Shown here: one piece after another, positions 8,419 to 32,172 of the stretch
Layout of the letters: each line of letters begins with the position of its first letter
Position numbering within the stretch: the first letter of the stretch is position 1
DNA from: Betaproteobacteria bacterium
GTDB lineage: Bacteria; Pseudomonadota; Gammaproteobacteria; Burkholderiales; Rhodocyclaceae
Assembly: GCA_012026675.1 (NCBI GenBank)
Contig: VEPA01000146.1
Span: 1 to 48,437 of the forward strand
DNA length: 48,437 nt
Direction of reading: 5' to 3'
Translations under genes and position numbers: made by a program
Notes under the pieces: generated by a model
The model's database searches: none
The model's input: the letters and a program-made list of their open reading frames with translations, nothing else
Told to the model about the DNA's origin: nothing

Positions 8419-8484
8419 TTTCCTTACTCCTTTTCCTGCGCCGCAAGAATCAGGACGCGACGAGCATGACATTTTTCAGTTGCG

Positions 8485-8527
8485 TTGCCGATTTCGGCTA
8501 ATTGCGCTGCCAGGGTCCGCCTAGAAT
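8485..8527 (+). promoter_or_regulatory. Shared activator site and -10 upstream of Idr-like operon
   Basis: TTGCCGATTTCGGCTA (8485-8500) contains the perfect dyad GCCGA-TT-TCGGC. A -10-like TAGAAT starts exactly 21 bases later (8522-8527). The same layout recurs at 15474-15516 before the amine dehydrogenase operon, with 15 of 16 bases identical in the dyad and the same 21-base gap. The dyad would touch the -35 position, as expected for an AraC-type class II activator. It lies 109 bases before the cytochrome start codon. Confidence 0.65.
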
Positions 8528-8608: not shown

Positions 8609-8953
8609 ATGCGGAACTTATCAGGAATGAAGGTGCTTATGGCAGCGACGCTGCTGGCCGCGCCGCTGAGTTCGCTCATGGCTGCCGGCCAGTCGGCGGC
8701 CACAATGTATGCCCTCAATTGCCTGGGCTGCCATTTCCCGCCCGACGAGATGACCCGCGAAGCCCCGGCCATGATCGGCCAGTTTGCCCAGACCGAAGGT
8801 GGCCGCATCTTTTTCATCCGGATCCCGACCGGCGGCGAGCCCATCGACAGGGAACAGGACGCGCGCCTGCTGCGCGAGATACTCAACTGGAAAAAGAGTT
8901 GTTCGGTGATTCTGCAGAATGCCCCGCTGCTCAAATATACGGGCGCTCGATGA
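8609..8953 (+). CDS. Small monoheme c-type cytochrome
   Basis: This is a predicted periplasmic electron carrier of 114 residues. A signal peptide (MKVLMAATLLAAPLSSLMAAG) is followed by one haem motif, CLGCH, about 40 residues in. The start could be 8609 or the internal ATG at 8627; neither has a strong ribosome site. The stop overlaps the start of the next gene (ATGA at 8950-8953), so translation is coupled and the frame is real. It resembles the cytochrome at 18934: both share a CxGCH-P start, a short F...GR.F...P block and a LNW block. The C-terminal 20 residues diverge from that paralogue. No methionine haem ligand is obvious. Confidence 0.75.
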   Translation: MRNLSGMKVLMAATLLAAPLSSLMAAGQSAATMYALNCLGCHFPPDEMTREAPAMIGQFAQTEGGRIFFIRIPTGGEPIDREQDARLLREILNWKKSCSVILQNAPLLKYTGAR

Positions 8954-10044
8954 CTTGCTGGCGGCGGACACTTTGCGTGCTGCTGAGCGGATTCACTTTC
9001 GCCTTTATGGTATCGACGGCCGCCGCGCAATCCGCGAGCCTGCAAGCCCTGCCGCCGCCGGCGACGGTCAAGCCGGCGCTGGCCAAGCTGGGCTGGCATT
9101 TGTTTTTCGAGCCGCGCCTGTCGGGCGACGGCAGCCGCAGTTGTGCGAGCTGTCACCTGCCGTCACGGGGCTTTGCCGACGGCGAACCGCTGTCACGCGG
9201 CTACAACGGCACGGAGTATTTTCGCAATGCGCCCGGCCTGATGTCGGTGCGGCTCAAAAGTCGGCTCATGTGGGACGGCCGGCTCGACGGCGCGGACCTG
9301 CCGCCGGCAGTTCGCGACATGGTGACCGACGCCCACTTCATGAATGCCGACGGGCGCCTGATCCAGGAGCGCATCCGCCAGATTCCCGAACTGCTCGCCC
9401 TGTGGCGCGAGGCTTTCGGGGCGCAGAGCCAGCCCTACGGCCCGCAACTCTTCGCCGCCATTGCCGAATTCCTCAAGACGCTGGATGGCGGCGACACGCT
9501 GGTGGACCGCGTCCTGCGCGGCGACAAGGTGGCACTGCCGGCTGCGGTGCGCGAGGGGATGGCCTTGTTCAGCGGCAAGGGCCAGTGCATACGCTGTCAC
9601 AACGGAGTGCTGGGCACGGACGGCAAGGCCTATCGCCTCGGCGTGTCCGAGAACCCGGCGATCGCCCAGGAACCGCTGCGCATGATTACCCTGCTGCGCC
9701 ATCACGCCACGATGGGTGTGCCGAACTACATGGCCGAACGCAAGGACCTCGGCAGCTATGCCGTGAGCAAGCAGCCGGACGATCGCGGGCGCTTCGTCAC
9801 GCCCGCCTTGCGCGGACTGCCCCACACGGGACCCTACATGCACAACGGGATGTTCGCCACGCTGGATGAAGTGGTGGCGTTTCACGATCAGGGCGGTGGT
9901 CCCGGCAGCGAGTTGCAGCCGCTGGGTCTGAGCGCGCGCGAACGCAAAGCGCTGGTCGCCTTCCTGCGTGCCTGGTCGGCGCCCATGCCGCCTATGGCCG
10001 AGCCGCCGGCCTACGACTACTGGCTGGCGGGAGCCGCGCGATGA
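8950..10044 (+). CDS. Diheme cytochrome c peroxidase/MauG family (IdrP-like), first copy
   Basis: This 364-residue periplasmic protein starts at the ATG at 8950 with a signal peptide (CVLLSGFTFAFMVSTAAAQ). Two haem motifs, CASCH and CIRCH, sit in the two cytochrome c domains of bacterial diheme peroxidases. The family block GPYMHNGMFATLDEVVAFHDQGG closes domain two. Known relatives reduce H2O2, mature TTQ (MauG), or accompany iodate reductase (IdrP1/IdrP2). Lying in a pair directly before a Rieske protein and an Aio-family subunit, the Idr role is the best match. A MauG role cannot be excluded because a TTQ enzyme is encoded 5 kb downstream. Start and stop overlap both neighbours by 4 bases. 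Confidence 0.88.
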   Translation: MTCWRRTLCVLLSGFTFAFMVSTAAAQSASLQALPPPATVKPALAKLGWHLFFEPRLSGDGSRSCASCHLPSRGFADGEPLSRGYNGTEYFRNAPGLMSVRLKSRLMWDGRLDGADLPPAVRDMVTDAHFMNADGRLIQERIRQIPELLALWREAFGAQSQPYGPQLFAAIAEFLKTLDGGDTLVDRVLRGDKVALPAAVREGMALFSGKGQCIRCHNGVLGTDGKAYRLGVSENPAIAQEPLRMITLLRHHATMGVPNYMAERKDLGSYAVSKQPDDRGRFVTPALRGLPHTGPYMHNGMFATLDEVVAFHDQGGGPGSELQPLGLSARERKALVAFLRAWSAPMPPMAEPPAYDYWLAGAAR

Positions 10045-11198
10045 GACGGGGTTTGGGAACAATATCGGCAACCGGATGGGTGGCGCTGATCCTGGCGGCC
10101 GCGGCTTCGCTCGCGGCTGCGGCCGAGCCGGTGCCGGGGGGTCTCGGCCCCTTGCCGGCAGTCAGAATTCCCGCCGACAACCCGATGAGCGCGGCAAAGG
10201 TGGAACTGGGGCGCCTGTTGTTCTGGGACACACGCCTCTCGGGCAATGCCTCGACTTCCTGCGCCTCGTGCCATGCGCCGCAAACCGGGTGGGGCGAACC
10301 GGAAGCCCTGTCGCGTGGTTATCCCGGCACGCGTCATTGGCGCAATGCGCAGACCATTCTCAACGCGGCCTACTATTCGCGCCTGTTCTGGGACGGCGCC
10401 GCCGACAGCCTGGAACAACAGGCGCAGTCGGCCGCAGAAGGGGCGATCGCCGGCAACGGCGAGGGGGCCATGATGGAAATGCGCTTGCGCCTGGTACCCG
10501 AGTATGTCACCCGTTTCCGCGAGGTCTTCGGCACCGAATGGCCGCGCATCCAGCATGCCTGGCAGGCCATCGCCGCCTTCCAGCGAACGTTGGTTTCGGA
10601 TGCGAAAAAAGTCCCGTTCGATCGCTGGCTGGCGGGTGATGCCACCGCGCTGAGCGCCTCAGCGCAGCGCGGTTATGCCCTGTTCGTCGGCAAGGCCGGT
10701 TGCGTGCAATGCCACGGTGGCCCGCTGCTTTCCGACCAGGCCTTTCACGCCTTGGGCGTGCCGCGCCATCGACAATCGGACAGCAATCCGCTGGTGCAGA
10801 TCACGGCGCGCTGGCAGAACCTGCAGCGCGGCGTTTCCGAAGCGCAATACAAGGGCAGCGACGACGACTTCGGGCTGGCCTACCTGACCCGCAATCCGGC
10901 GGATGCGGGCCGTTTCCGCACGCCGTCGCTGCGCGAGTTGCGTTATACGGCGCCCTACATGCATAACGGCGTATTCGCCACCTTGGGCGAAGTCGTCGAG
11001 TTTTTCGATCAGGGCGGCGGTGAGGGCCCGAACAAGCCGCCGCAGTTGCGACCGCTGGGACTCAGCGCGACAGAAAAGCAGGATCTCGTCGCATTTCTCG
11101 AATCGCTCAGCATGGACCAGCCGCTGCTGCTGGCGCCGCCTCGGGTGCCCGAGGCAAAACCGCTGGCAGACGGAGGAATGAATGCACGCCCACGATGA
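10041..11198 (+). CDS. Diheme cytochrome c peroxidase/MauG family (IdrP-like), second copy
   Basis: This 385-residue paralogue of the preceding gene starts within its stop codon (ATGA). A hydrophobic signal sequence (VALILAAAASLAAAAEP) targets it to the periplasm. The haem motifs are CASCH and CVQCH. GRLLFWDTRLSGNASTSC before the first haem and APYMHNGVFATLGEVVEFF near the end are typical of the peroxidase/MauG superfamily. It carries a longer N-terminal lead-in (PADNPMSAAKVELG) than the first copy. A pair of diheme peroxidases next to IdrAB is the recognised companion set of iodate reductase, where it is proposed to remove H2O2. Its 3' end overlaps the Rieske gene by 17 bases. Confidence 0.88.
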   Translation: MRRGLGTISATGWVALILAAAASLAAAAEPVPGGLGPLPAVRIPADNPMSAAKVELGRLLFWDTRLSGNASTSCASCHAPQTGWGEPEALSRGYPGTRHWRNAQTILNAAYYSRLFWDGAADSLEQQAQSAAEGAIAGNGEGAMMEMRLRLVPEYVTRFREVFGTEWPRIQHAWQAIAAFQRTLVSDAKKVPFDRWLAGDATALSASAQRGYALFVGKAGCVQCHGGPLLSDQAFHALGVPRHRQSDSNPLVQITARWQNLQRGVSEAQYKGSDDDFGLAYLTRNPADAGRFRTPSLRELRYTAPYMHNGVFATLGEVVEFFDQGGGEGPNKPPQLRPLGLSATEKQDLVAFLESLSMDQPLLLAPPRVPEAKPLADGGMNARPR

Positions 11199-11694
11199 AC
11201 CGGCCTGCCAGTCGCGCCGGGATTTTCTGCTGAACGGCGGCAAGCTGGTGATGCTCGCCGCGGCTTCGGCAGTCACGGAAGCCGTGTGGGCGCAACGCGC
11301 CGGACATGCGCCGCTGGCAATAGCCCGACTGTCCGCGCTCAAAGCCGGCGAACCCTACTATTTTGAATATCCGCAGGCGGGCGATCTCAACATGCTGGTC
11401 AAGCTCGGTGTCCCTGCTGGCGGCGGCATTGGTCCGCAGGCGGACGTGGTGGCCTTCAGCACGCGCTGCACCCATCTCGGCGGCAAGCTGCAGGATACGC
11501 TGCAGGCAGGGTTGCAGGTACTTGGCCCCTGTCCGCGCCATCTAACCACCTTCGACCTGAGCCGCCATGGCGTAGTGATTACCGGGCATGCCACGGCCAG
11601 CCTGCCGCAAGTGGTGCTGGAACTGGACGGCGACCAGATCCGCGCCATCGGCATGCAGGGACTGGTGTATCCCGACAGGAGCCGGCATGCCTGA
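11182..11694 (+). CDS. idrB: Tat-exported Rieske 2Fe-2S subunit (AioB/IdrB family)
   Basis: This small subunit of 170 residues passes electrons to or from the molybdenum subunit. The N-terminus carries a twin-arginine signal, SRRDFLLNGG then a hydrophobic stretch. Cluster ligands are Cys96 and His98 (CTHLGG) and Cys117 and His120 (CPRH). The extra disulphide cysteine pair found in some AioB proteins is absent from CTHLGG. ITGHATASLPQVVLELDGDQI matches the AioB C-terminal half. GGAGGA precedes the ATG at 11182. It overlaps the next gene by 8 bases, and it would carry the signal-less large subunit through the Tat pore. The AioB/IdrB family is clear; the choice of IdrB rests on the neighbouring peroxidases. 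Confidence 0.85.
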   Translation: MHAHDEPACQSRRDFLLNGGKLVMLAAASAVTEAVWAQRAGHAPLAIARLSALKAGEPYYFEYPQAGDLNMLVKLGVPAGGGIGPQADVVAFSTRCTHLGGKLQDTLQAGLQVLGPCPRHLTTFDLSRHGVVITGHATASLPQVVLELDGDQIRAIGMQGLVYPDRSRHA

Positions 11695-14299
11695 AATTCA
11701 GCCCGTACCCTTGCCGCCGCTCGGCGCCGAAGAAATATCGACCGCCTGCGACTACTGTGTCGTGGGCTGCAGCTATCGTGTCTGGCGCTGGAAAGTTGGC
11801 GCTGGCGGAACGGCCAATACGGCCGTGCCGTGGGCCAATCCGTCCCAGCACAACATCGTGCAATGGCAGGGGCAGCCCCACCATGTGCTGGTGCTGCCGG
11901 ATCCGCACGCCAGGGCCGTCAATCCAAAGGGCAACCATTCGATGCGCGGCGGCACCCTGGCGCAGAAGTGCTACAACCCGACAAACAAGACGCGCGAGCG
12001 GCTGACCACGCCGCTGCTGCGGGTCAAGGGCGAGCTGCAGCCGGTTTCCTGGGACACGGCGCTGGACATCATGGCGGCGGTGTCAACGCATGTGCTGAAA
12101 CGCCACGGCGAACACGCCTGGGGCGTCAAGGCCTACTCCTACCAGTATTTCGAAAACACCTACGCCATCACCAAACTGGCGCTCGATGCCATCGGCACGC
12201 CGGCCTTCGCCCCGCACGACAAATGCGCCAACAGCAACGATGCGGCGGGACTGGACGATGCCGGTCTCGAAGCCTTTGCGCCGGCCTATGAGGACTGGGG
12301 TGCGTGCGACGTGCTTTTCCTGTCGGGCACCGATCCCTTCGAAACCAAGAGCACGCTATTTACCAGCTGGATCATGCGTGGCGAAGTGCCGGGCAAGACG
12401 CTGATCTTTGCCACGCCGCACCGGAGCATGGGCGTGGCCTGGGCCGAGAAGCGCGGCGGCCTGTGGCTGCCGGTGATCCCGGGTACGGATACCCTGTTGC
12501 ACAACGCGATTGCCCGCGTGATTGTCGAGCGCGGCTGGCAGGATCAGGCCTTCATCGAGCGCTGGGTGGCGAAGCGCTGGGAGGTCGACCAGGGTTATGG
12601 CCGCGGCACTCGCAATACGCCTTCGCAATGGCGCACCACCTGGGGCACCTGGCAAAGCGACTGGGATGATTTTCGCCAGTTCCTGCTGTCGCGGGACGAA
12701 CACAGGCTGGAGCATGCGGCACGTATCACCGGAGTGCCCGCCGCGCTGATCGAACGGGCCGCCGTACTCCTGGCCAGACCCCGCGCCGACGGCACGCGAC
12801 CGAAGGCATCCTTCATGCTGGAGAAGGGCAACTACTGGTCCAACAACTACATGAACAGCGCCTCCTTCGCCGCGCTGGGACTGATCTGCGGCGCGGGCAA
12901 TCGCAAGGGGCAGGTGATCGGGCGCGGTGGCGGCCACCAGCGCGGCATGATTTCGTCGCCCGGCAATCCCGACTGGCTGTCGCCCGAGAAACATCCGGGC
13001 CGACGCAAGAAGCCGCTGAATCTGGATCGCTGGCTGATGGACGGCCAACTGCGCTTCGCCTGGGTTTTCGGCACGACATGGATAGGCGCGATGGCCGCCT
13101 CGGACGAACTGGAGCGCCACATCGACCGCCTGACCCGCGGCAGCCCGCAGCAGCCGCAACAGGCAACTGTCGCTGCAGCGGTGACGGCACTGATCGCCCG
13201 CGCCGATGCCGGCGGCATGGTGCTGGTCGATTCCGACATCTATCCCGTGGAGCCGCTGGGCACGCGCTACGCCGATATCATTTTGCCGGCCGCCACCTGG
13301 GGCGAGGCCGACTTCACGCGCTGCAACGGCGAGCGCCGTCTGCGCCTCTACAACCGGTTTTGCGATGCGCCAGGCCAGGCGCAGCCGGACTGGTGGGCGG
13401 TGCAAGGGTTTGTCCGGCGGATGGGATTTGGCGACAAGTTCGCCTGGAAGAACAGCAGCGATGTCTTCGAGGAAGCCGCACGCCACAGCCGGGGAACGCC
13501 TTACGATTATTTCGAACTGGTGGAACAGGCGCGACGGGAGAGGGTGACGGGACACGAGTATCTGCGCCGCCTGGGTGGCGACGGCATCCAGACGCCGGTC
13601 TGGCGGCAGGGAAATTCGATTGCCGGCACCGTCCGCCTGCACGATCCGCTGACCCGGCAGGGCGAACCCGGCGCCTTCCGCAACAAGCTGCTGAGTGCCT
13701 TCAATACCCACAGCGGCAAGGCGATGCTGCTCAAGACGCCATGGAACTTTCCCGGCTGGAGCGAGTTTTACGCCGCCGTGCAACCGCGCAGCGAGAAACA
13801 GGAACTATGGATCACCAACGGCCGCATCAACGAAGTCTGGCAAAGCGGCTTCGATGACATCCGCAAACCCTATACCGCGACGCGCGGACTGCCGCAGATG
13901 CTGTTCATGAATCCCGAGGATGCGCGAATGCGCGGCATCGAAACCGGCGACCGGGTGCGGGTGAGCAACGACATGGTGTATGTGCAGACCGGCATGCCGT
14001 TCGGCGTGACTGAAAGCGAGATGAATTTCAACAGCCTTTTGGCCGCCGGGCATATCCGGATCACGCAGGGAAGTTTCGAGGCGGTGGCGGTGCTCGATCC
14101 CGGTATGCGCCCGGGTGTCGCCAAGGCCGGTTTCAACGGACGCGGCAGCCATGCCAACGCGGTCTGCCATGCCGTTCCCGACCCGATGACCAATAACTAT
14201 CGCTACAAACTGGGACGGGGGCGCATAGAGCGCTTGGCCGCTGCCGCGGAAAAATTCGACCTCAAGGGGTCGAGCCTGAAGCCGCGCGGTCTAGCCTGA
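11687..14299 (+). CDS. idrA: Aio/Idr-family molybdopterin oxidoreductase, probable iodate reductase catalytic subunit
   Basis: This 870-residue DMSO-reductase-superfamily enzyme starts at 11687 (MPEIQPVPL), preceded by AGGAG. C21-x2-C24-x3-C28 with Ser85 in place of the fourth ligand predicts a 3Fe-4S cluster, as in arsenite oxidase AioA. Aio-like blocks are FENTYA, IPGTDTLLHNAI, GRGGGHQRGM (Arg413, His417), NGERRLRLYNRF and ITNGRINEVWQSGF. No export signal is present. The region matching the arsenite-binding His195 of AioA reads DAAGL, with no histidine. The protein is also longer than usual AioA (about 825). With IdrB and two diheme peroxidases in the same operon, iodate reductase is the best call. 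A different oxyanion substrate remains possible. Confidence 0.8.
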   Translation: MPEIQPVPLPPLGAEEISTACDYCVVGCSYRVWRWKVGAGGTANTAVPWANPSQHNIVQWQGQPHHVLVLPDPHARAVNPKGNHSMRGGTLAQKCYNPTNKTRERLTTPLLRVKGELQPVSWDTALDIMAAVSTHVLKRHGEHAWGVKAYSYQYFENTYAITKLALDAIGTPAFAPHDKCANSNDAAGLDDAGLEAFAPAYEDWGACDVLFLSGTDPFETKSTLFTSWIMRGEVPGKTLIFATPHRSMGVAWAEKRGGLWLPVIPGTDTLLHNAIARVIVERGWQDQAFIERWVAKRWEVDQGYGRGTRNTPSQWRTTWGTWQSDWDDFRQFLLSRDEHRLEHAARITGVPAALIERAAVLLARPRADGTRPKASFMLEKGNYWSNNYMNSASFAALGLICGAGNRKGQVIGRGGGHQRGMISSPGNPDWLSPEKHPGRRKKPLNLDRWLMDGQLRFAWVFGTTWIGAMAASDELERHIDRLTRGSPQQPQQATVAAAVTALIARADAGGMVLVDSDIYPVEPLGTRYADIILPAATWGEADFTRCNGERRLRLYNRFCDAPGQAQPDWWAVQGFVRRMGFGDKFAWKNSSDVFEEAARHSRGTPYDYFELVEQARRERVTGHEYLRRLGGDGIQTPVWRQGNSIAGTVRLHDPLTRQGEPGAFRNKLLSAFNTHSGKAMLLKTPWNFPGWSEFYAAVQPRSEKQELWITNGRINEVWQSGFDDIRKPYTATRGLPQMLFMNPEDARMRGIETGDRVRVSNDMVYVQTGMPFGVTESEMNFNSLLAAGHIRITQGSFEAVAVLDPGMRPGVAKAGFNGRGSHANAVCHAVPDPMTNNYRYKLGRGRIERLAAAAEKFDLKGSSLKPRGLA
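11793..11814 (+). repeat. 22-bp dispersed repeat, copy 4 (inside idrA-like gene)
   Basis: This copy matches the consensus at 20 of 22 positions and is read in frame as KVGAGGTA (residues 36-43), just after the iron-sulphur motif. AioA also has glycine-rich sequence here, so part of the match could be protein-driven. Confidence 0.55.
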
Positions 14300-14332
14300 C
14301 CGGGTCGCGACGCGCCGGATGCACGCCGGCAC

Positions 14333-15355
14333 TCAAGTTCTGCGCAATGTGTCAGATGGCAGTTCGCCGAACATGGCGCGGTAATCGTTGGCGAAATGCG
14401 ATAAATGCCAGAAGCCCCAGCGCGCGGCAACGTCCTGTACCTGCGTGTTTGCCGGATTGGCGCGGCGCAGTTCGCGGCGCACGCTGTTCAGCCTGATCGC
14501 TCGCAGATACTGCACCGGGTTGGTTTTGAGGACTTCCTGGAAACAATACTGGATAGTGCGTCGACTGGTATTCAGCGCTTCACAAAGGTCCGCGATGGTC
14601 ACCGTGTCGTGAAGATTGGTCAGGACGTAGCTTCTGGCATTTTCCACGATGGCCTTGCGGGCCTGATAGGTCGCCAGCGGAGCCGGCATGTCGTTGGCAG
14701 TCTGGATCGAGTCGCAGAGGTGACCCATCAGGGCCGAATGGACGGTTCTCTGGACCGTCGGATGGGACAGCATCGCCGGGTTCTCGTCGAGCACTTCGAA
14801 CAGCGAATCCAGGAATACGCGCAACTCGGCCAGACCGGACGGACACCGCATCATTGCCGGATCGTCTGACATCAAACGCTTCGACCCGGCACCGGCCAAC
14901 GATGCAACCACCTGCTGATAGTCTTCTTCGCGGATGGCGATGCCGACGACGTCGAATTCCTTAGGGCTTTGCAGGGAGAACTCGCTGCCCGGGCCAAAAG
15001 AAAACATGCTGTCCGCGTGCAAAGGGCGATCACAGAACGACCCGCTGCCATTCATCGTCATCGGCACTCCGAACAGTCGCGCACCGGCCCATGCCTGTCC
15101 CCGCTCGACGACCGCTTGCGTGGTGACCTCGCGAAATATCTGCATGTCCCCGATCCATACCTCGGACAGGGTTCCCCGAAAACTGCCGGAACTGATTTGG
15201 TCATAGTTCTGGTCCCATTTGCCGAGATTGGCGGCATGCTCATCGACGTCGAGGGCAGTCAATTTCCGATAGGAATGCTGCGTGTCAAAGTCCTCGACCG
15301 AGTGAATCGGAGTCTTGGGCAGCGGCAGTCGGCTCAGGGTTTCGGAATACGGCAT
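14333..15355 (-). CDS. AraC family (EutR-type) transcriptional regulator
   Basis: This is a 340-residue regulator. The N-terminal sensing region of about 200 residues has the GKWDQNYDQISSGSFRGTLSEV block and the FGVPM and SFGPG segments seen in EutR-like proteins, which often control periplasmic quinoprotein or ethanolamine genes. The C-terminal AraC helix-turn-helix pair spans about residues 230-335: TIADLCEALNTSRRTIQYCFQ, then VQDVAARWGFWHLSHFANDYRAMFGELPS. It lies on the opposite strand between the Idr-like and TTQ dehydrogenase operons, divergent from the latter. It is the obvious candidate to bind the two matching dyads at 8485 and 15474. The inducer is unknown, perhaps an amine. Confidence 0.88.
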   Translation of the reverse strand: MPYSETLSRLPLPKTPIHSVEDFDTQHSYRKLTALDVDEHAANLGKWDQNYDQISSGSFRGTLSEVWIGDMQIFREVTTQAVVERGQAWAGARLFGVPMTMNGSGSFCDRPLHADSMFSFGPGSEFSLQSPKEFDVVGIAIREEDYQQVVASLAGAGSKRLMSDDPAMMRCPSGLAELRVFLDSLFEVLDENPAMLSHPTVQRTVHSALMGHLCDSIQTANDMPAPLATYQARKAIVENARSYVLTNLHDTVTIADLCEALNTSRRTIQYCFQEVLKTNPVQYLRAIRLNSVRRELRRANPANTQVQDVAARWGFWHLSHFANDYRAMFGELPSDTLRRT

Positions 15356-15473
15356 CTGGTGAAGGTAAAGGATGGAAGCACTGCTAGTTTAACCGTAATG
15401 GAAGTCGGCATTCCGGCGGCCAAGGTATGCGGCAGTGCAACAAAAGAGACATTCTTGAATGGATCGGCCGGTT

Positions 15474-15516
15474 TTGCCGATTTTGGCTACCGGTAACGCA
15501 GTAGGTCACTTAGACT
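15474..15516 (+). promoter_or_regulatory. Shared activator site and -10 upstream of amine dehydrogenase operon
   Basis: TTGCCGATTTTGGCTA (15474-15489) differs from the site at 8485 at one of 16 bases. A TAGACT hexamer follows after exactly 21 bases (15511-15516). It lies 114 bases before the heavy-chain start and 119 bases before the divergent regulator start, so it could also serve autoregulation. The rest of the gap 15356-15602 holds no gene. Confidence 0.65.
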
Positions 15517-15602
15517 TCAAACTCTTCAGGATGTCTTCGCGCCCGGTTCCACATGCGCGCCGAACTTCATTCACGATAGGCTTTGTTCGAGAAAGGGCCG
15601 AA

Positions 15603-16751
15603 ATGCTTGCTGGCAATATCAGGAAATTATGCGCGGGCGCGATCATCGTCGCGGCTTCACATGCGCATGCCGAGGTTCCGATTGACAAGATTACGGTTGC
15701 CAACCTGCCGCCGGCGACTCCTTACCGGCTTTATCTTTCCGACATGGCGATTTCCCATTTTGTTGACAGCAAACTGATGATCATCGACGGCGAGACTTTG
15801 GGTGTTCTCGGCCACGTGGCGCTTGGCATGCCCGGGCACGCCACATTGACTCCGGATCGGTCGGAATTGCTGGTGTCGACGGCCTATATGACCAAGCTCA
15901 ATCGCGGCGAGCGCATCGGGCAGATGGATGTATATGACGCAACCACGCTCAAGCTGAAGGCTGAAATCAGCGTGCCACCCAAGCATGCCCAATCGATGCC
16001 CTACCGGGGAAGCATTCGTACCTCGGCCGACGGTCGCTTCGTCATGATGCAGAACGCGACGCCGGCTTCATCGGTGACCGTGGTCGATCGCATTGCCGGC
16101 AAGTTTGTGGCCGAGGTCGCCACACCGGGATGCTGGATGATCTATGTCCCTCAATCGGTATCCGACCGCTTCTCGACCCTGTGCGGCGACGGCACCATGC
16201 TCACGGTCAAGCTCGATGCCGAAGGCAAGCCGCTGGAGCGGAAGAAGAGCGCCAAGTTTTTCGATGCAGATGATGATGCCCTGTTCACTTCGGGCGCACA
16301 ACTGGACGACAGCTACACCTTCGTTTCATTCAAGGGCAATGTGCAGACCGTCAATGTCGCCGGCGACTCCGCGGTTGCCGACGCACCCTGGCCATTGGTG
16401 ACGGCGGCGGAAGCCAAGGCTGGGTGGCGGCCAGGCGGTTATCAGCCACTCGCACTGCACGACAAGAGCGGGCGCATCTACGTCGGCATGCACCCCAAGG
16501 GCAAGGAGGGCAGCCACAAGAGTCCCGCCAAGGAGATATGGGCCTTCGATCTGGCGAGCAAGAAGCGCGTTGCACGCGCTCCCGGTCATCATGCCACGGT
16601 GATCGCGGCAAGCCGCGGTGATGCGCCGAGGGTGTTTGCCTACTCGACCGACAAATCGACCCTGGCTGTATTTGATGGTGGCGGAAAACTCAAGCACCTG
16701 AAAACAGCAGGTCCCTTCGCGGAATTTGCCACCCAGATGGACGTCCAGTAA
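15603..16751 (+). CDS. aauB: Amine dehydrogenase heavy (large) subunit, AauB/MauB family
   Basis: This 382-residue periplasmic beta-propeller subunit belongs to a TTQ-dependent amine dehydrogenase. I set the start at 15603 (MLAGNIRKLCAG) because it begins a signal peptide ending SHAHA; the frame is open to 15459 but that part is not signal-like. Family landmarks are RLYLSDMAISHFVDSKLMIIDGE, GHATLTPDRSELLV, CWMIYVPQSVSDRFSTLCGDG and the C-terminal block IWAFDLASKKRVAR. The heavy chain scaffolds the small TTQ subunit and shapes the substrate channel. It is the first gene of a BEDA-order operon, and its stop overlaps the next start (TAATG). Confidence 0.9.
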   Translation: MLAGNIRKLCAGAIIVAASHAHAEVPIDKITVANLPPATPYRLYLSDMAISHFVDSKLMIIDGETLGVLGHVALGMPGHATLTPDRSELLVSTAYMTKLNRGERIGQMDVYDATTLKLKAEISVPPKHAQSMPYRGSIRTSADGRFVMMQNATPASSVTVVDRIAGKFVAEVATPGCWMIYVPQSVSDRFSTLCGDGTMLTVKLDAEGKPLERKKSAKFFDADDDALFTSGAQLDDSYTFVSFKGNVQTVNVAGDSAVADAPWPLVTAAEAKAGWRPGGYQPLALHDKSGRIYVGMHPKGKEGSHKSPAKEIWAFDLASKKRVARAPGHHATVIAASRGDAPRVFAYSTDKSTLAVFDGGGKLKHLKTAGPFAEFATQMDVQ

Positions 16752-17311
16752 TGGGAAGCCTGCCCTTGCTCGATCCGGTCGCCGCCAGCGCCATGTGTGC
16801 CTTTCTGGCGGTGATATTCCTGACCGGCGCCTGGCAAAAGTTACGCGATCTTTCCCTGTTCCAGGCCAACATCGACAACTATCGGTTGCTGCCGGATGGC
16901 CTGGCCTGGCCGGTCGCCATCGTGCTGCCCATGTGGGAACTTGCGGCCGGCGTCCTGGTTCTCTTCGACTCGACGCGGACGGCCGGCGCGGCGCTGGCGA
17001 TCGGACTGCTGTTGGTCGTGACGGCGGCGGTCGTCACCAACCTGATGCGCGGGCGGACCGAAATCGACTGCGGCTGCGGCAGTCTCGGCGGACACGTCGG
17101 CGACCAGACGCTGAACTGGGGGCTAACGGTGCGCAACGCCTTGCTGGCACTTGCCGCCTTGCTCGCCTTGCGCGAGGATGCGGCTCGTGCCCTGGTCTGG
17201 ATCGACTACCTGAGCGTTGCCGGCGGAACCCTGGGCCTGCTCGGGCTTTACGTCACGGCAAATCAGCTGATGGCCAATCATCCGCGTCTGCATACCTTGA
17301 GGAATCACTAG
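16751..17311 (+). CDS. aauE: MauE/AauE family membrane protein
   Basis: This 186-residue inner-membrane protein of the MauE (DoxX-like) family is needed for assembly of the disulphide-rich TTQ subunit. Four hydrophobic helices are visible: near MCAFLAVIFLTGAW, WPVAIVLPMWELAAGVLVLF, AAGLA-type AIGLLLVVTAAVVTNLM and NALLALAALLAL. A CGCGSLGG motif (DCGCGSLGG) sits in the third loop, a conserved redox-like Cys pair of this family. Start and the heavy-chain stop share a base. MauE is proposed to work with MauD, which follows after 2 bases. Confidence 0.9.
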   Translation: MGSLPLLDPVAASAMCAFLAVIFLTGAWQKLRDLSLFQANIDNYRLLPDGLAWPVAIVLPMWELAAGVLVLFDSTRTAGAALAIGLLLVVTAAVVTNLMRGRTEIDCGCGSLGGHVGDQTLNWGLTVRNALLALAALLALREDAARALVWIDYLSVAGGTLGLLGLYVTANQLMANHPRLHTLRNH

Positions 17312-17313
17312 CA

Positions 17314-17907
17314 ATGACTGAAGCCCTGGTTGTCTCCAATATCATTCTCTGGATCGTGGTGCTGGCCTTGCTGCTGGCCGTGCTGGCATTGGCACGTCAG
17401 GTCGGCATTCTCTACGAGCGGGTAGCGCCGATGGGCGCGCTGATGCTCGATCACGGTCCCAAGGTCGGCGACATGGCGCCGGCGTTCAAGATCGACGCGC
17501 TGGATGGGCGCAACGTGGCGGTGGGCTTCTCCGGCAGCAAGAAGAGCCAGTTGCTGTTCTTCCTGTCGCCGACCTGCCCAGTCTGCAAGAAGCTGCTGCC
17601 GGTCCTGAAATCCATCAGGAGTGTGGAGGCCAAATGGCTGGATGTGGTTCTTGCCAGCGACGGCGACCGTCCGGAGCATGCAGAGTTCTATCGCAAGGCG
17701 GCCTTGACCGAATTTCCCTATATTCTGTCGACCGATCTCGGCATGGCCTTTCAGGTAGGGAAACTCCCTTATGCCATATTGATCGGCGATGACGGCAGGA
17801 TTCGCGCCAAGGGCCTGGTCAATTCCAGGGAACAGCTCGAAAGCCTATTCGCCGCCAAGGAACTGGGCGTCGCTTCGGTGCAGGAATACATTGATCAGCA
17901 AGCCTGA
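17314..17907 (+). CDS. aauD: MauD/AauD thioredoxin-like disulphide protein
   Basis: This 197-residue membrane-anchored thioredoxin-fold protein has one N-terminal helix (IILWIVVLALLLAVLALA) and then a periplasmic TlpA-like domain with the redox motif CPVC in FFLSPTCPVCKKLLP. The cis-proline region is GKLPYAILI. MauD is required for correct disulphide pairing in the cysteine-rich small subunit. Start at 17314 follows a GAGGAA. It sits between MauE and the small subunit, exactly as in mauED-A and aauED-A clusters. Confidence 0.93.
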   Translation: MTEALVVSNIILWIVVLALLLAVLALARQVGILYERVAPMGALMLDHGPKVGDMAPAFKIDALDGRNVAVGFSGSKKSQLLFFLSPTCPVCKKLLPVLKSIRSVEAKWLDVVLASDGDRPEHAEFYRKAALTEFPYILSTDLGMAFQVGKLPYAILIGDDGRIRAKGLVNSREQLESLFAAKELGVASVQEYIDQQA

Positions 17908-17933
17908 TTCGTCGGTATCGCAAGGAGACGGAA

Positions 17934-18464
17934 ATGCAATGGTTTGACAACTTTTTCGAGGCCCGCAGCCGCCGTGCGGCACAGTCGATTTCGCGGCGCA
18001 GCGCGGTTGCGCGGCTCGGCAAGCTGCTGGTGGGAACGGCCATCCTGCTGCCGGTGCTGCCCTTCGACCGGATCGGCAAGGCGATTGCGGCAGACAAGGC
18101 CAAGGACAAGCGGAATGACGACACGGCCTGCGAATACTGGCGTTATTGCGCGCTCGACGGCTTTCTGTGCACCTGCTGCGGCGGCTCGATTTCCGCCTGC
18201 CCGCCGGGTACCGAAGTCTCGAAGGTCACCTGGGTCGGCACCTGCCACAATCCCAACGACGGCAAGGACTATCTGATCAGCTACAACGACTGCTGCGGCG
18301 GCGTTACCTGCAATCGCTGCGGCTGCAACTCCAACGAAGGTGAGCGCCCCGGCTACCGCATGGGCGTGCATAACGACATCAACTGGTGCATGGCCAACAG
18401 CTCGAACGCGTATCACTGCACCGTGGCCGCGGTCGTCGGCACCGCAGAGAAAAGCCAGGGCTGA
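17934..18464 (+). CDS. aauA: TTQ-bearing amine dehydrogenase small (catalytic) subunit
   Basis: This 176-residue precursor has a Tat-like signal (SRRSAVARLGKLLVG, then a hydrophobic stretch). The mature part has 14 cysteines in the AauA/MauA pattern (CEYWRYCALDGFLC, CCGG, DCCGG). Trp100 (TWVGTC) and Trp151 (NWCMAN) are 51 residues apart, the spacing of the TTQ pair in both methylamine and aromatic amine dehydrogenases. Asp119 lies 19 residues after Trp100, where the catalytic base is known. Thr163 follows Trp151 by 12, as in aromatic amine dehydrogenase (Trp160/Thr172), not 14 as in methylamine dehydrogenase (Trp108/Thr122). An aromatic or larger amine is therefore more likely than methylamine. 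Confidence 0.93.
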   Translation: MQWFDNFFEARSRRAAQSISRRSAVARLGKLLVGTAILLPVLPFDRIGKAIAADKAKDKRNDDTACEYWRYCALDGFLCTCCGGSISACPPGTEVSKVTWVGTCHNPNDGKDYLISYNDCCGGVTCNRCGCNSNEGERPGYRMGVHNDINWCMANSSNAYHCTVAAVVGTAEKSQG

Positions 18465-18465
18465 G

Positions 18466-18930
18466 ATGCATGGACGCAGGCTCATTGCGGCGGGCAGCTT
18501 CGCTTTGCTGACGCTTGCCGCCAGCGGATCGTTGCGGGCTGCCGATGGGGCAGCTCTCTATGCGGCCAATTGCGTGGCCTGTCATCAACCGGACGGCAAC
18601 GGCAGCGAGGGCTTGGCGCCGCCTCTGGCCGGTGTGCTTGGCAAGCGGGCGCAGTCGGCTAACGGACGCGAGTATCTGGCCCAGGTGCTGGTTTCCGGCA
18701 TGGTCGGCAACATCACCTCGCGCGGCGTCAAGTACAACGGCAACATGCCGGCGGCGACCCTGTCCGATGAAGAACTATCTGCAGTGATGGGCTATGTGCT
18801 CACGACCTTCAATAACTTATCGCAGCCTATGCCTGCGGAGCTTTTCAGCGCGGCCCGGGGCAAGGCGCTGACGCCCTCCGCGGTGCGCCAGCAGCGCGAA
18901 CGCGTGCTTGCGGAAGTCGGGGGGGAGTAG
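18466..18930 (+). CDS. Monoheme c-type cytochrome, amine dehydrogenase partner
   Basis: This 154-residue periplasmic cytochrome starts at 18466, one base after the small-subunit stop. The signal peptide (AAGSFALLTLAASGSLRAA) precedes a single CVACH motif in ANCVACHQPDGNGSEG. The sixth haem ligand is probably Met in YNGNMPA. Its position directly after the small subunit suggests it takes electrons from TTQ in place of amicyanin or azurin, neither of which is encoded here. Known aau clusters also carry a monoheme cytochrome downstream. The C-terminal 35 residues are a charged tail of no known role. Confidence 0.88.
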   Translation: MHGRRLIAAGSFALLTLAASGSLRAADGAALYAANCVACHQPDGNGSEGLAPPLAGVLGKRAQSANGREYLAQVLVSGMVGNITSRGVKYNGNMPAATLSDEELSAVMGYVLTTFNNLSQPMPAELFSAARGKALTPSAVRQQRERVLAEVGGE

Positions 18931-18933
18931 GGC

Positions 18934-19374
18934 GTGGCAAGAGGCTTCTACCCCTCACTCATTGCGATCGGCCTGACGGCATTGCTTGCCTCGCCGGTTG
19001 TGGCGGGCGAGCGGCAGCGCATCAACTATCTGCTGCATTGCTCCGGCTGCCATCAACCCGATGGCAGCGGCAGCCCCGCCAGCGGCATCCCCGATATGCG
19101 CGGCAGCATCGGCTATTTCCTGCGCGTGCCGGAAGGGCGCGCTTTTCTGGTCCAGGTACCGGGCACCTCACAATCCTCGCTGAACGATGCCGACACGGCC
19201 GAGTTGCTGAACTGGATGGTGCGGGCGATGGCCAAGAACGAAGTTCCGGCGGATTTTTCGCCATACACGCGCGACGAGGTGACCCGCCTGCGCGGGCATC
19301 CGCTCGATGACGTGACCGCAGTACGGACGTCCGTTGTCGGACGTTTGCAGCAAATGGGCTATAGAATTGAATGA
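18934..19374 (+). CDS. Small monoheme c-type cytochrome (GTG start)
   Basis: This 146-residue predicted periplasmic protein begins at the GTG at 18934, after a strong GGGGGGAG and 3 bases past the previous stop. A signal peptide (LIAIGLTALLASPVVAG) precedes one haem motif, CSGCH, at about residue 36. The haem motif, the FLRVPEGRAF block and the ELLNW block resemble the cytochrome at 8609 that opens the Idr-like operon, so the two modules carry related electron carriers. No clear methionine ligand is seen. The role is inferred as electron transfer or assembly for the dehydrogenase. Confidence 0.82.
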   Translation: MARGFYPSLIAIGLTALLASPVVAGERQRINYLLHCSGCHQPDGSGSPASGIPDMRGSIGYFLRVPEGRAFLVQVPGTSQSSLNDADTAELLNWMVRAMAKNEVPADFSPYTRDEVTRLRGHPLDDVTAVRTSVVGRLQQMGYRIE

Positions 19375-19399: not shown

Positions 19400-20770
19400 A
19401 TGAAGTCGAACCGCAAGATGTTGCAGTCAACCGTGTCGGCCGCAGTACTGGTCTTCTTTGCCGGTGGCGCCCAAGCGGCAGTGTCCGAAGCCGAAGCAGC
19501 GAAGCTCGGCAAGGACCTGACGCCGGTCGGCGCCGAGCGCGCCGCCAACAAGGACAGCAGCATTCCGGAGTTCAAGGGCGGCACGCCCAAGGGCAAGCTC
19601 AAGCTCGGCGACCCGCGGGTCAACCCCTACGCCGCTGAAAAGCCCCTGTTCTCGATCGACGCGTCGAACGTCGACAAATACAAGGACAAGCTGACCGCCG
19701 GCCAGATCGAACTGATCAAGACACGCAAGGGCTACCGCATGGATGTCTATCCGACCCACCGCTCCTGCGGTTATCCGGACATCATCAACGAGCGAACGAA
19801 AAAGAACGCGACGCTGGCAAAGCTCACCACCGACGGCAAGGACAACCTCGCGACAGCGCTCGGTGGCGCCTTCCCCTTCCCGATTCCGAAGAACGGCGCC
19901 GAGGCGGTCTGGAACCACAAGCTGCGCTGGCAGGGTGAGGGCCGTTTCGAGTACTACCAGACCAATTTCATAAACCCGGACGGAAGCTTCTACGGTCTTG
20001 CCCAGGATCAGGTTACCCTGATGCCGTTTGCCTCGACCAAGGCCAATTCGCCGCAGGACGTCGGCGACGTGCAGATGAAGATCCTCAATACCGCCACCGC
20101 ACCCGCTTCACGCACCGGCGAGGTGATACTTGCGCACTACTTCATGACCAAGGGCAACGACGCCTGGATGTACTTCCCCGGCCAGCGCCGCGTCCGCCGC
20201 CTGCCGGCGTTCGACTATGACAATCCGATTCCAGGCTACGAAAATCTGGAGACCGCCGACCAGTACCCGATGTTCGCCGGCCAGCTGGACCGCTATGACT
20301 GGAAACTGGTCGGCAAGCAGGAACTCTATGTGCCGTACAACAACTTCAAGTTCGTCGCCAAGCGCCCGGTCAAGGATGTCTATGGCGGCCTGTACCCGAA
20401 TCGCGACCTGATGCGCTACGAACTGCACCGCGTCTGGAAGGTCGAGGCGACAGTCAAGGCCGGCATGCGCCACATGTTCGCCAAGCGCGAGTTCTACCTC
20501 GACGAGGATACCTGGATGCTGCTCAACGCCGACCAGTACGATGCCCAGGGCAAACTCTGGCGCGTGATGGAAGCCTCGATCTATCCGGCGGTCGAACTTG
20601 GCGCCTGCGTCAGTCAGGAATTCATGTCCTGGGATCTGAACGTCAATCGCTACATGGCCGAGAACTCGACTCAGGAAGCCAAGCCAACCGACTGGCTGGC
20701 CGGTGACGAGGGACGCATCGATCCCAAGCGTTTCAATTCCGACGAACTGCGCCGCGCCGGCGAGCGCTGA
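19400..20770 (+). CDS. DUF1329 family outer-membrane/periplasmic protein
   Basis: This 456-residue protein starts at 19400 after GAGGGGGAG. The signal peptide (VSAAVLVFFAGGAQA) is followed by the family opening AKLGKDLTPVGAERA. The body has typical DUF1329 blocks: GYRMDVYPTHRSCGYPD, MYFPGQRRVRRLPAFDYDNPI, YVPYNNFKFV and LMRYELHRVWKVEAT. The fold is related to LolA/LolB lipid carriers. These proteins almost always lie beside DUF1302, an RND pump and a Ycf48-like protein in clusters for hydrophobic substrates, and that is the case here. The exact cargo is unknown. Confidence 0.92.
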   Translation: MKSNRKMLQSTVSAAVLVFFAGGAQAAVSEAEAAKLGKDLTPVGAERAANKDSSIPEFKGGTPKGKLKLGDPRVNPYAAEKPLFSIDASNVDKYKDKLTAGQIELIKTRKGYRMDVYPTHRSCGYPDIINERTKKNATLAKLTTDGKDNLATALGGAFPFPIPKNGAEAVWNHKLRWQGEGRFEYYQTNFINPDGSFYGLAQDQVTLMPFASTKANSPQDVGDVQMKILNTATAPASRTGEVILAHYFMTKGNDAWMYFPGQRRVRRLPAFDYDNPIPGYENLETADQYPMFAGQLDRYDWKLVGKQELYVPYNNFKFVAKRPVKDVYGGLYPNRDLMRYELHRVWKVEATVKAGMRHMFAKREFYLDEDTWMLLNADQYDAQGKLWRVMEASIYPAVELGACVSQEFMSWDLNVNRYMAENSTQEAKPTDWLAGDEGRIDPKRFNSDELRRAGER

Positions 20771-20802: not shown

Positions 20803-22638
20803 ATGAAAAATACATACCTGCAGATCACGCCGCTGGCGCTGGCCATCGCGGCACTGGGCGCCGCGTTTGCCAACCCGGCAGCGGCCTTCAAGTTCGAGAC
20901 GGCAAACGGGCTAACCGGCAGTTTTGACTCGACGATTTCCGTCGGCATGCAGATGCGCATGCAGGGGCGGGACACGTCGATCATCGGCAACGATAATGGC
21001 GGCAATGTACCGACGGTCGGCAATCTGGGCGAGAGGGTGAATGGCCCCGGCTTTGGATTTACCTCCAACCCGGATTTCAATTATCTCAACACCGACGACG
21101 GCGACCTGAATTACAAGAAGCACGACGTAGTCTCAGCCGTCGTCAAGGGAACCCACGAGCTGTTTCTGACGCAGAAAGGCAACTGGTCCGCACTCGCGCG
21201 CGTGACCTGGTCGTCCGACCAGAAGGCCGATGACACCCAGCGCACTCCGCTACGCCACGATGCCGAGGATGCGGTCAAGCAGAACGTGGCCCTGCTCGAC
21301 CTCTGGGTCGCCAAAGAGTTCTCGATCGGCGAGCAGAATGCCAAACTCAAACTCGGCAATCAGGTCATCAGCTGGGGCGAGGACATTTTCATCATCGGCG
21401 GCGTCAACTCGATCAACGCGCTCGATCTGCGCAAGTTCCACATTCCAGGCGTCCAGCTGAAGGAGGTCTTCATCCCGGCGCCGATGCTCTCATTCAGTTC
21501 CGGTCTCGGCAACGGCTTTTCGACCGAGGCCTATTACCAGTTCAAATGGAACAGTTTCAATTTCGATCCGTCGGGCACCTACTGGTCATCTGCCGACTTC
21601 ATCGGCAAGGGCGGCAAGCGCGGCGCATTCATTCCCTCATCCCTGCTTGGATTGCCCCCGGGTACGGTTGGCGACTGGAATCCGAAGCTGGCCGGCCGGG
21701 ACATGACTACCCTAAGCGTTTTCCCCGGAATCGTCCCGATCAAGAACACCGAGCCTAAAGACAGCGGGCAGTACGGCATCAACCTGCGCTTCAAACCGGC
21801 GGAGGGCGATACCGAGTACGCTGCCTACTACCTGCATTATCACGACAAGATTCCCTTCGTCGGCTTCCAGCAGGACCTGAACGTGGCGGGCTCCTGTGCT
21901 GCTGGGTGCCCTCCTACCGGCGCTCCCGGCGCAAACGTCGGCGGCTACAAGGCAATTATTCAATACGGCGAGGACAAGGAGTTGTTCGGCCTGTCCTTGA
22001 ATACCAAGCTGGGCGATTGGGCCGTCGGCGCGGAACTGTCTTACCGGCCGCGCGATAGCGTGGCGATCGATCCGACGGTACCCATTCCGGGCGGGAATTC
22101 AAAATACAAATACAACCTGCTGCAACAGGCGATAGATTCGCCCACCGGGGTCGCCACCGTCAAAGGCTATACCAATGAGGAAAAGTACCAGGCGCACGTC
22201 ACCGGCTTCTACTTGCTGCCGCAAGCATTTACTGCTCCCCTCGGTGCGGCGGATGGTTCCTTTCTCGCCGAAGTCGCAGTTGCCCACTATCCTGGCCTCG
22301 ACCTCTCGGGTGCCGTTCCCTATCTGCTCAACAACTACACGCTGCCCGACAAGACCTCGTGGGGGTATGTGCTCGAGGTCGGCCTGACCTACGCCAACAT
22401 CTTCCAGTCGGGCTGGACCATGTCGCCGCTGATCGATTTCTACCATGACGTCCATGGCACCAGTCCGACGGCCTTGCCCTTTGTCGAAGGCAGGAAGGCG
22501 CTGGCGCTAAACCTCAACTTCGACTATCACAACGAATGGAAGGGCAACATCGGCTACAGCGCCTTCTGGGGCGGCGGCAACATGAACATGATGCGTGACC
22601 GCGACGTGCTCTCGATGTCGATTTCCCGCACCTTCTGA
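20803..22638 (+). CDS. DUF1302 family predicted outer-membrane beta-barrel
   Basis: This 611-residue protein has a clear signal peptide (ALAIAALGAAFANPAAAF) after a GAGGAGGATG ribosome site. The mature protein shows alternating aromatic/polar strands and ends in ISRTF, a C-terminal phenylalanine typical of barrels inserted by BAM. Family landmarks are NQVISWGEDIFIIGGVNSINALDLR and TEYAAYYLHYHDKIPF. DUF1302 proteins are thought to pass hydrophobic compounds across the outer membrane, paired with DUF1329. A strong terminator follows at 22652, so this is probably the last gene of the transcript. Confidence 0.92.
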   Translation: MKNTYLQITPLALAIAALGAAFANPAAAFKFETANGLTGSFDSTISVGMQMRMQGRDTSIIGNDNGGNVPTVGNLGERVNGPGFGFTSNPDFNYLNTDDGDLNYKKHDVVSAVVKGTHELFLTQKGNWSALARVTWSSDQKADDTQRTPLRHDAEDAVKQNVALLDLWVAKEFSIGEQNAKLKLGNQVISWGEDIFIIGGVNSINALDLRKFHIPGVQLKEVFIPAPMLSFSSGLGNGFSTEAYYQFKWNSFNFDPSGTYWSSADFIGKGGKRGAFIPSSLLGLPPGTVGDWNPKLAGRDMTTLSVFPGIVPIKNTEPKDSGQYGINLRFKPAEGDTEYAAYYLHYHDKIPFVGFQQDLNVAGSCAAGCPPTGAPGANVGGYKAIIQYGEDKELFGLSLNTKLGDWAVGAELSYRPRDSVAIDPTVPIPGGNSKYKYNLLQQAIDSPTGVATVKGYTNEEKYQAHVTGFYLLPQAFTAPLGAADGSFLAEVAVAHYPGLDLSGAVPYLLNNYTLPDKTSWGYVLEVGLTYANIFQSGWTMSPLIDFYHDVHGTSPTALPFVEGRKALALNLNFDYHNEWKGNIGYSAFWGGGNMNMMRDRDVLSMSISRTF

Positions 22639-28616: not shown

Positions 28617-28874
28617 GGTCAATCCGTTTCGAGTACTCCGGGTACGGGAAGGCAGGGACTTTCGCACTGTTTGCGAAGGACATTCCCAATCGCCGATGCA
28701 GTCCAGATGGATGTCTTGCATGTAATTTAGCGCATCTTGAGTCTTGATGGAATTTTCTAATGGCGAAGACTGAAGTAAATGCTTTCCCTCATGGAATTAC
28801 CCCTGAAGCAATAATAGAATGCCTGTTTTGTGCATAGCGACAATCCACTGGCAGGATAACAAGGAGAAGCGTAA

Positions 28875-32172
<3,298 letters not shown>

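Follow-up and report, generated by a model that had tools for sequence, protein, structure and literature searches.

The stretch of DNA analyzed here (the window; 48,437 nt) is contig VEPA01000146.1 of a betaproteobacterium from the Rhodocyclaceae (assembly GCA_012026675.1; 3.58 Mb in 267 contigs, 86% complete). It carries, side by side, a gene module of the iodate reductase type (idr) and a gene block for an amine dehydrogenase of the tryptophan tryptophylquinone (TTQ) type (aau). The idr-like module (8609-14299) is an intact overlapping operon with the gene order cytochrome c-idrP1-idrP2-idrB-idrA, in which each of the four junctions is an overlap of 4-17 bases. It is followed by a gene for an AraC family regulator, divergent from aauB in the window and in several related loci, and then by aauB, aauE, aauD, aauA and genes for two c-type cytochromes, here called cyt2 and cyt3 (Table 1). 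An earlier note on this DNA had named all of these genes, and direct reading and profile searches found every one of them present, open and in the order described. The note ended the amine module at 19374; it does extend that far, but the aau block continues to ~27820 through genes for DUF1329, DUF1302, MMPL/RND and YCF48-like proteins and an acyl-CoA ligase.

Relatives of the window's molybdenum-containing large subunit were taken from a scan of named genomes, which returned 501 relatives among 533 stretches, the best 80 of which were used. A quick tree without bootstrap was computed from 88 rows, comprising 84 IdrA-type sequences and four Aio sequences (plasmid-borne examples); L019, a duplicate of L027, and partial IdrA rows were omitted from the counts. 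The window protein falls into a clade of 10 (the window plus nine loci; SH-aLRT 100) nested within the Pseudomonadota IdrA proteins, with all four AioA rows outside it, and thus the placement in an AioA/IdrA phylogeny that the earlier note had proposed as a check came out on the IdrA side. In the tree, the clade lies between Denitromonas iodatirespirans (L050) and Roseovarius azorensis (L065), for which passages of PMC8692401 and PMC11445184 report iodate reduction. The window protein is 58-62% identical to the canonical rows that were compared (46% for Vibrio) and retains the IdrA-type segments CDYCVVGC (the N-terminal three-cysteine motif for the 3Fe-4S cluster), HDKC..ND, and RGGGHQRG. That the enzyme instead runs in the Aio sense, as an oxidase delivering electrons from arsenite or another donor to the same cytochromes, might be argued from its score of 370.5 bits against the 359.05-bit cut-off of TIGR02693 and from its top solved structures, which are AioA. 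The window shares its molybdoenzyme family and Rieske partner with AioAB but differs from it in its place in the tree, in its active-site segments and in its IdrP1/P2 genes, which Aio loci lack according to a passage of PMC8692401, making an Aio-type oxidase highly improbable. Judged by its sequence, the large subunit is an IdrA despite the Aio-model score, with few but consistent differences from the canonical proteins.

For the dehydrogenase, both chains match solved aromatic amine dehydrogenase (AADH) better than methylamine dehydrogenase (MADH), with 176 versus 161.5 bits for the light chain and 245.5 versus 110.7 bits for the heavy chain; methylamine was therefore dropped as a candidate substrate. 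AauA keeps two tryptophans and an aspartate at positions aligned with AADH, which we take to be the TTQ tryptophans and the catalytic aspartate of that enzyme. The aauBEDA cluster is that of Alcaligenes faecalis. The window has the gene order B-E-D-A, the TTQ residues and the trailing small cytochromes in common with aauBEDA (AADH structures such as 2AGY). Unlike that cluster, it is linked to an Idr-type reductase and has a larger DUF1329/DUF1302/MMPL/YCF48 and ligase block, parts of which are also found in aau loci with no idr genes nearby.

The adjacency of the two modules extends beyond this one genome. Both lie on one contig in nine of the 10 clade members, namely, the window, L027 (G083), L028 (G400), L029, L030, L031, L032 (G399), L033, and L072, and a single-genome accident was rejected on this ground. 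By comparison, none of the other 71 idr loci has aau genes on its contig; part of this negative result is limited by contig ends, since 36 of the 71 are full length, and the difference holds against all 71 (Fisher, 3.8e-11) and against the 36 full-length loci (9.1e-9). The association is also seen at the level of whole genomes: aauA occurs anywhere in the genome for nine of 10 clade members versus four of the 23 different genomes in which canonical idr is the only kind (Fisher, 1.6e-4). The latter number derives from 30 hand-picked idr genomes searched for aauA, among which one carried both kinds of idr and six were repeats. In the four positive genomes (G450, G488, G627, and G696), aauA is on another contig, and in G450 both idr and aauA are at contig ends, so that the two may be linked there. 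Across 399 genomes of the order, two have both modules, six have idr (excluding G065, whose 36% match is Aio-like) and 22 have aauA (hypergeometric p 0.038), a genome-level overlap that is weak when taken alone.

The linked modules occur in three arrangements. The idr module lies 5′ of aauB in the window, L029, L030, and L031; directly after aauA in L033 and L072; and after the aau block in G083, G400, and G399, with an aldehyde dehydrogenase gene on the same strand between block and module in G083 and G400. In the aau tree, the second version of which has 17 rows after six distant loci were dropped (L030 is in neither version, its contig ending inside aauB), the Idr-linked rows do not form one clade. 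A single origin of these rows is rejected (AU p 0.0056), as is the grouping found in the IdrA tree (p 4.7e-11), suggesting at least one event in which the link was put together anew or one of the modules was exchanged. These results bear on the explanation that the adjacency is a neutral hitch-hike, or the common descent of one neighboring pair, without any functional link. Such an explanation would suit a single IdrA clade whose nine relatives are all betaproteobacterial by title; it is at odds with the three arrangements, with both tree rejections and with an operator-like site common to the two modules (see below), and we regard it as quite unlikely.

The small cytochromes provide a further tie between the modules. 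Fifteen aau loci away from idr (13 genomes) were fetched with their flanks, out of 29 aauA places outside G000 and G083. In all 15, a homologue of cyt3 follows aauA, either as the next gene or after cyt2, and a search at E 1e-3 found no IdrP homologue near any of them. The cytochrome that leads the idr module in the window (cytC_up) is a shorter homologue of cyt3. It stands 5′ of idrP1 in all nine clade members in which the contig reaches that far, and a search of the 71 other idr loci at E 1e-5 gave no match to it. This pattern suggests that the electron carrier of the dehydrogenase itself was copied into the idr module.

A putative control site is also common to both modules. The 16-mer TTGCCGATTTYGGMTA is present in exactly two copies in the window, one ahead of each module, and has no further exact copy anywhere in the 3.58-Mb assembly. 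One more genomic site was found at one mismatch (C54); since it overlaps long reading frames whose translation, by eye, resembles part of an ABC transporter, it was treated as chance. With up to two mismatches allowed, there are 16 genomic sites, versus three for the reversed pattern. Because the degenerate match was noticed by eye, how often it occurs in the window is no independent evidence, and it is tested instead by its occurrence in the whole assembly, in the relatives and in canonical loci. A -10-like box lies ~20 bases 3′ of most sites (by eye), and the form TGCN-N6-GGNTA resembles the half site of the XylS type. The longest exact word common to the two upstream regions has a p of 0.0525, and a consensus promoter scan gave one match, near neither module (mean of shuffles, 1.9).

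Among the 29 loci scanned ahead of aauB, the 16-mer occurs with 0-1 mismatches in 12 (the window, L025, L029, L030, L031, L033, L072, L137, L139, L192, L193, and L195) and with 2-3 mismatches in L143, L151, L196, L197, and L198, the other 12 showing 4-6; at 0-1 mismatches it precedes aauB in eight of the nine linked members. Ahead of the idr module, an exact copy is present in the window and in L030 and a weak one (three mismatches) in L031, loci in which the module has a promoter region to itself. The 16-mer is absent there (5-6 mismatches) from L027, L028, L033, and L072, in which the idr module may be read from the aau-block genes, since it follows them on the same strand. None of the 71 canonical idr loci (1.25 Mb) contains the 16-mer at one mismatch or fewer. 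A variant, TTGCCGATTTGGGATA, was observed ~5 kb before aauB in L025 (~6144) and L192 (~2944), beside a paralogue of the aldehyde dehydrogenase gene. The amine regulon may be larger.

The two di-heme proteins of the window, P_a and P_b, are orthologous to IdrP1 and IdrP2, and belong to the CCP_MauG family together with MauG, BthA, and MbnH. Matches aligned over fewer than 250 residues were omitted from their comparison, and the column of the axial tyrosine of MauG was set by eye against MauG-like proteins and not against a solved MauG. In this column, canonical rows have tyrosine in 55 of 55 P_a and 64 of 66 P_b sequences (the other two being misaligned or gapped). In the core of the clade, it is replaced by phenylalanine in P_b (6/6) and by histidine in part of P_a (4/6, with tyrosine in the other two); the window has histidine in P_a and phenylalanine in P_b, and neither protein thus has the tyrosine ligand that marks MauG. 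Passages of PMC6405878 describe that the near-infrared feature of the bis-Fe(IV) state is not formed in MauG Y294H and BthA Y463H and that BthA Y463H still reduces peroxide. Given the replaced tyrosine and the behavior of these mutants, P_a and P_b are unlikely to be TTQ-making enzymes. The related proposal that the pair is the MauG of this dehydrogenase, with the molybdoenzyme being incidental, could draw on the requirement of MauG for TTQ in MADH and on matches to TIGR03791, although these matches (162.4 and 218.5 bits) are far under its cut-off of 443.85 bits. It is very unlikely in view of the orthology to IdrP1/P2, the phenylalanine and histidine in the ligand column of the core, the lack of IdrP homologues at E 1e-3 near the 15 fetched aau loci away from idr, and five other CCP_MauG genes elsewhere in the genome, outside the window. 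In three basal members of the clade, P1 and P2 are in one frame with four CXXCH motifs (L031, 6730-9432; L032, 7177-9447; L083, 2048-4369), a predicted tetraheme fusion in which, by eye, both halves keep the tyrosine.

The degradative route beyond the dehydrogenase is suggested by genes clustered with it. An aldehyde dehydrogenase gene lies within the cluster of L027, L028 (G400), L031, and G399; in the window, no close homologue of it was seen. This enzyme and the acyl-CoA ligase of the block (26129-27820) together point to a route from amine to aldehyde, acid and acyl-CoA. A passage of PMC6394551 connects DUF1302, DUF1329, and RND genes with the breakdown of monoterpenes by AmeABCD in Castellaniella defragrans. 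The same three gene types recur in the window, where the block sits behind an amine dehydrogenase, and by this analogy the linkage hints at a hydrophobic amine as substrate. In-frame TGA codons flagged in several aauA matches proved to be the ordinary terminal stop in both loci that were checked. Further observations on aauA concern L129 (G058 C1), in which some of the usual cysteines are replaced (CNTAGGS, MANSTAC), which suggests a protein with fewer disulfides, and the g36 genomes, eight of whose nine aauA-bearing members (e.g., G254, G118, and G075) have two aauA copies that sit in clearly different clades of the aau tree.

The flanks of the two modules are housekeeping genes, with guaB and guaA before them and pyruvate phosphate dikinase after them; the latter gene (28875-31670) was considered as a PEP-utilizing member of an aromatic pathway and rejected. 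A gene for a family III CoA-transferase (7285-8472, minus strand) is divergent from the idr module and also adjoins idr in L030 (89% identity); it may belong to the same pathway. Ankyrin-repeat-type proteins are encoded downstream (27906-28721, minus strand; 38278-39006, plus strand), with no tie to the module seen. The window contains no tRNA and no Rfam match at the gathering score.

Table 1. Genes and putative control sites of the idr-like module and the aau block in the window
Feature	Position	Strand	Remarks
Putative AraC-type operator TTGCCGATTTCGGCTA	8485..8500	+	5′ of idr-like module; TAGAAT -10-like box downstream (by eye)
cytC_up, small c-type cytochrome	8609..8953	+	CLGCH read directly; homologue of the cytochrome after aauA; no Pfam/NCBIfam match at E 0.01
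P_a, IdrP1-type di-heme protein, CCP_MauG	8950..10044	+	Two CXXCH; His at MauG axial-Tyr column; searched from 8953 on
P_b, IdrP2-type di-heme protein, CCP_MauG	10041..11198	+	Two CXXCH; Phe at MauG axial-Tyr column
IdrB-type Rieske subunit	11182..11694	+	Twin-arginine motif SRRDFL, read directly
IdrA-type molybdenum catalytic subunit	11687..14299	+	TIGR02693, 370.5 bits (cut-off, 359.05)
AraC family, EutR-like regulator	14333..15355	-	Below EutR cut-off; presumed activator of both units
Putative AraC-type operator TTGCCGATTTTGGCTA	15474..15489	+	5′ of aauB
AauB, aralkylamine dehydrogenase heavy chain	15603..16751	+	Start inferred; ORF open from 15459; searched from 15540 on
MauE/AauE membrane maturation protein	16751..17311	+	
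MauD/AauD thioredoxin-like maturation protein	17314..17907	+	TIGR02661 above cut-off
AauA, TTQ light chain	17934..18464	+	Matches and TTQ residues
cyt2, c-type cytochrome	18466..18930	+	
cyt3, c-type cytochrome	18934..19374	+	Homologue after aauA in 15/15 fetched aau loci away from idr
DUF1329 periplasmic LolA-like protein, aau block	19400..20770	+	Start inferred
DUF1302 protein, aau block	20803..22638	+	Outer-membrane type predicted by analogy with PMC6394551
MMPL/RND transporter, aau block	22737..25109	+	
YCF48-like protein, aau block	25123..26097	+	Start inferred
Acyl-CoA ligase	26129..27820	+	NF009233, 887.5 bits (cut-off, 832)

Taken together, these data give good support, from comparative sequence analysis, to the view that amine oxidation and the Idr-type module are functionally linked. 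The earlier note had proposed a periplasmic chain that oxidizes an amine and reduces iodate or a similar oxyanion. Of this proposal, co-induction and a shared chain are well supported, because the link recurs in several betaproteobacterial lineages and the same putative operator lies 5′ of both modules in the window, while iodate as the acceptor is plausible only. The fuller reading, to which we give about even chances, is that both modules belong to a single, mainly periplasmic redox unit that is induced by an amine and leads from the amine dehydrogenase to the Idr-type reductase, and we infer its electron flow, inducer and acceptor as follows. The AraC/EutR-like protein would sense the amine or a product of it and in response activate both modules. 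A primary amine would be oxidized by the TTQ dehydrogenase AauA/AauB, with AauE and AauD as its maturation proteins; this substrate is probably hydrophobic, an alkyl- or aralkylamine handled by the DUF1329/DUF1302/MMPL/YCF48 block. The aldehyde so formed would be converted to the acid by an aldehyde dehydrogenase, clustered in the relatives, and then activated by the acyl-CoA ligase. Electrons would exit via the small c-type cytochromes, with the idr-attached homologue passing them to the Rieske protein IdrB and on to IdrA (3Fe-4S/Mo), which under oxygen shortage would reduce an oxidized acceptor of the oxyanion type, with iodate as the likeliest candidate. Peroxide or other oxidants formed on the route would be cleared by the two di-heme proteins.

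Several observations weigh against this redox unit with iodate as its default acceptor. All nine relatives are metagenome assemblies, and both the operator and the -10 boxes were first picked out by eye as pattern matches. For the idr locus L083, a search of the genome (G132, 94% complete) at E 1e-10 gave no aauA; the idr module there adjoins YCF48, the last gene of the aau block, close to the end of its contig. In G399, the two blocks are ~7 kb apart with an aldehyde dehydrogenase gene on the opposite strand between them, and the 16-mer is absent both before aauB (L191, six mismatches) and before the idr module (L190, five mismatches); its absence before the idr module in L083 and L190 (5-6 mismatches) is unexplained. 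In L031, the idr-module site is weak (three mismatches) and the AraC gene was not seen in the fetched stretch. The IdrA tree carries warnings of long Aio branches and of letter make-up in L027, L028, L033, and L072. The remaining points concern divergence of the Idr proteins themselves: the core seven members sit on a long stem (0.33) in the IdrA tree, most of them have a deletion of an ~18-residue loop, and their heme-ligand positions are altered; residue 734 of IdrA is glycine in 10 of 10 clade rows versus tryptophan in 72 of 74 canonical rows (W734G); and two genomes carry a canonical idr as well (L031/L055 in Sulfuritalea bin.273 and L083/L035 in the JACPEG assembly), so that the function of the aau-linked copy may be a different one.

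The comparison with idrABP1P2 of Pseudomonas sp. SCT, D. iodatirespirans IR-12, Aromatoleum TC-10, Azoarcus DN11, and R. azorensis follows the same lines. The genes are orthologous and share the order P1-P2-B-A. Unlike these canonical loci, the clade has the Aau-type leading cytochrome, the aau linkage, the operator-like site and W734G, the loop deletion in most core members, phenylalanine for the tyrosine ligand in core P_b and histidine in part of core P_a, and P1-P2 fusions in three basal members. Nor does it show a close copy of the two-component system of the iodate island. In the window, this system, c551, and moaA gave no match at E 1e-5; among the 36 full-length canonical loci they are found in 20, 10, and two, respectively. 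Elsewhere in the clade, the two-component system appears only as weak distant matches in L027 and L028, three clade loci being short with flanks partly covered. A passage of PMC8801600 describes the accessory genes of the island as facultative in the family.

By descent, iodate is a plausible default acceptor for the redox unit, with a real chance of another. The substrate of the Idr enzyme may have changed, given the diverged branch, the canonical idr alongside it in two genomes, the failure to see a close two-component copy and the changes at conserved positions. In its explicit form, this alternative holds that the aau-linked Idr is neofunctionalized, taking electrons from the amine dehydrogenase cytochromes and reducing another oxyanion, or an organic N-oxide or hydroxylamine encountered in amine catabolism. 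It would account for the canonical idr kept in the two genomes, for Gly734, the core loop deletion and the core stem, and for expression in the window that is apparently under an amine regulator, with no close copy of the island two-component system; groundwater, mentioned in three of the nine relatives' titles, would also agree with it. The retained IdrA-type active-site segments and the position of the clade between two reported iodate reducers speak for an unchanged substrate, and there is no independent hint at another one; neofunctionalization is thus possible, though well short of probable. A bolder version, which we advance tentatively and consider rather unlikely, is that an Idr subfamily was drawn into the amine regulon more than once, as the dedicated electron outlet of the TTQ dehydrogenase. 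Electrons would then pass within the periplasm from the amine through AADH and the copy of its cytochrome to IdrBA, bypassing the quinone pool, and on to an acceptor other than iodate that is encountered as amines are broken down, and the peroxidases would have been retuned by loss of the tyrosine ligands.

In the open-licence literature searched, none of the papers listed combines iodate reductase with amine dehydrogenase or tryptophylquinone terms. In the redox unit proposed here, a quinone-cofactor amine dehydrogenase appears to have been given its own terminal reductase, and the genomes with two idr copies offer a direct comparison of canonical and rewired Idr. The clade also bears on the use of idrA as a marker of iodate respiration, all organisms with idrABP1P2 being stated in a passage of PMC8692401 to be likely iodate respirers. 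The aau-linked clade would be counted among them, and surveys may misread it, since it looks amine-controlled, shows no close copy of the two-component system and is altered at conserved positions.

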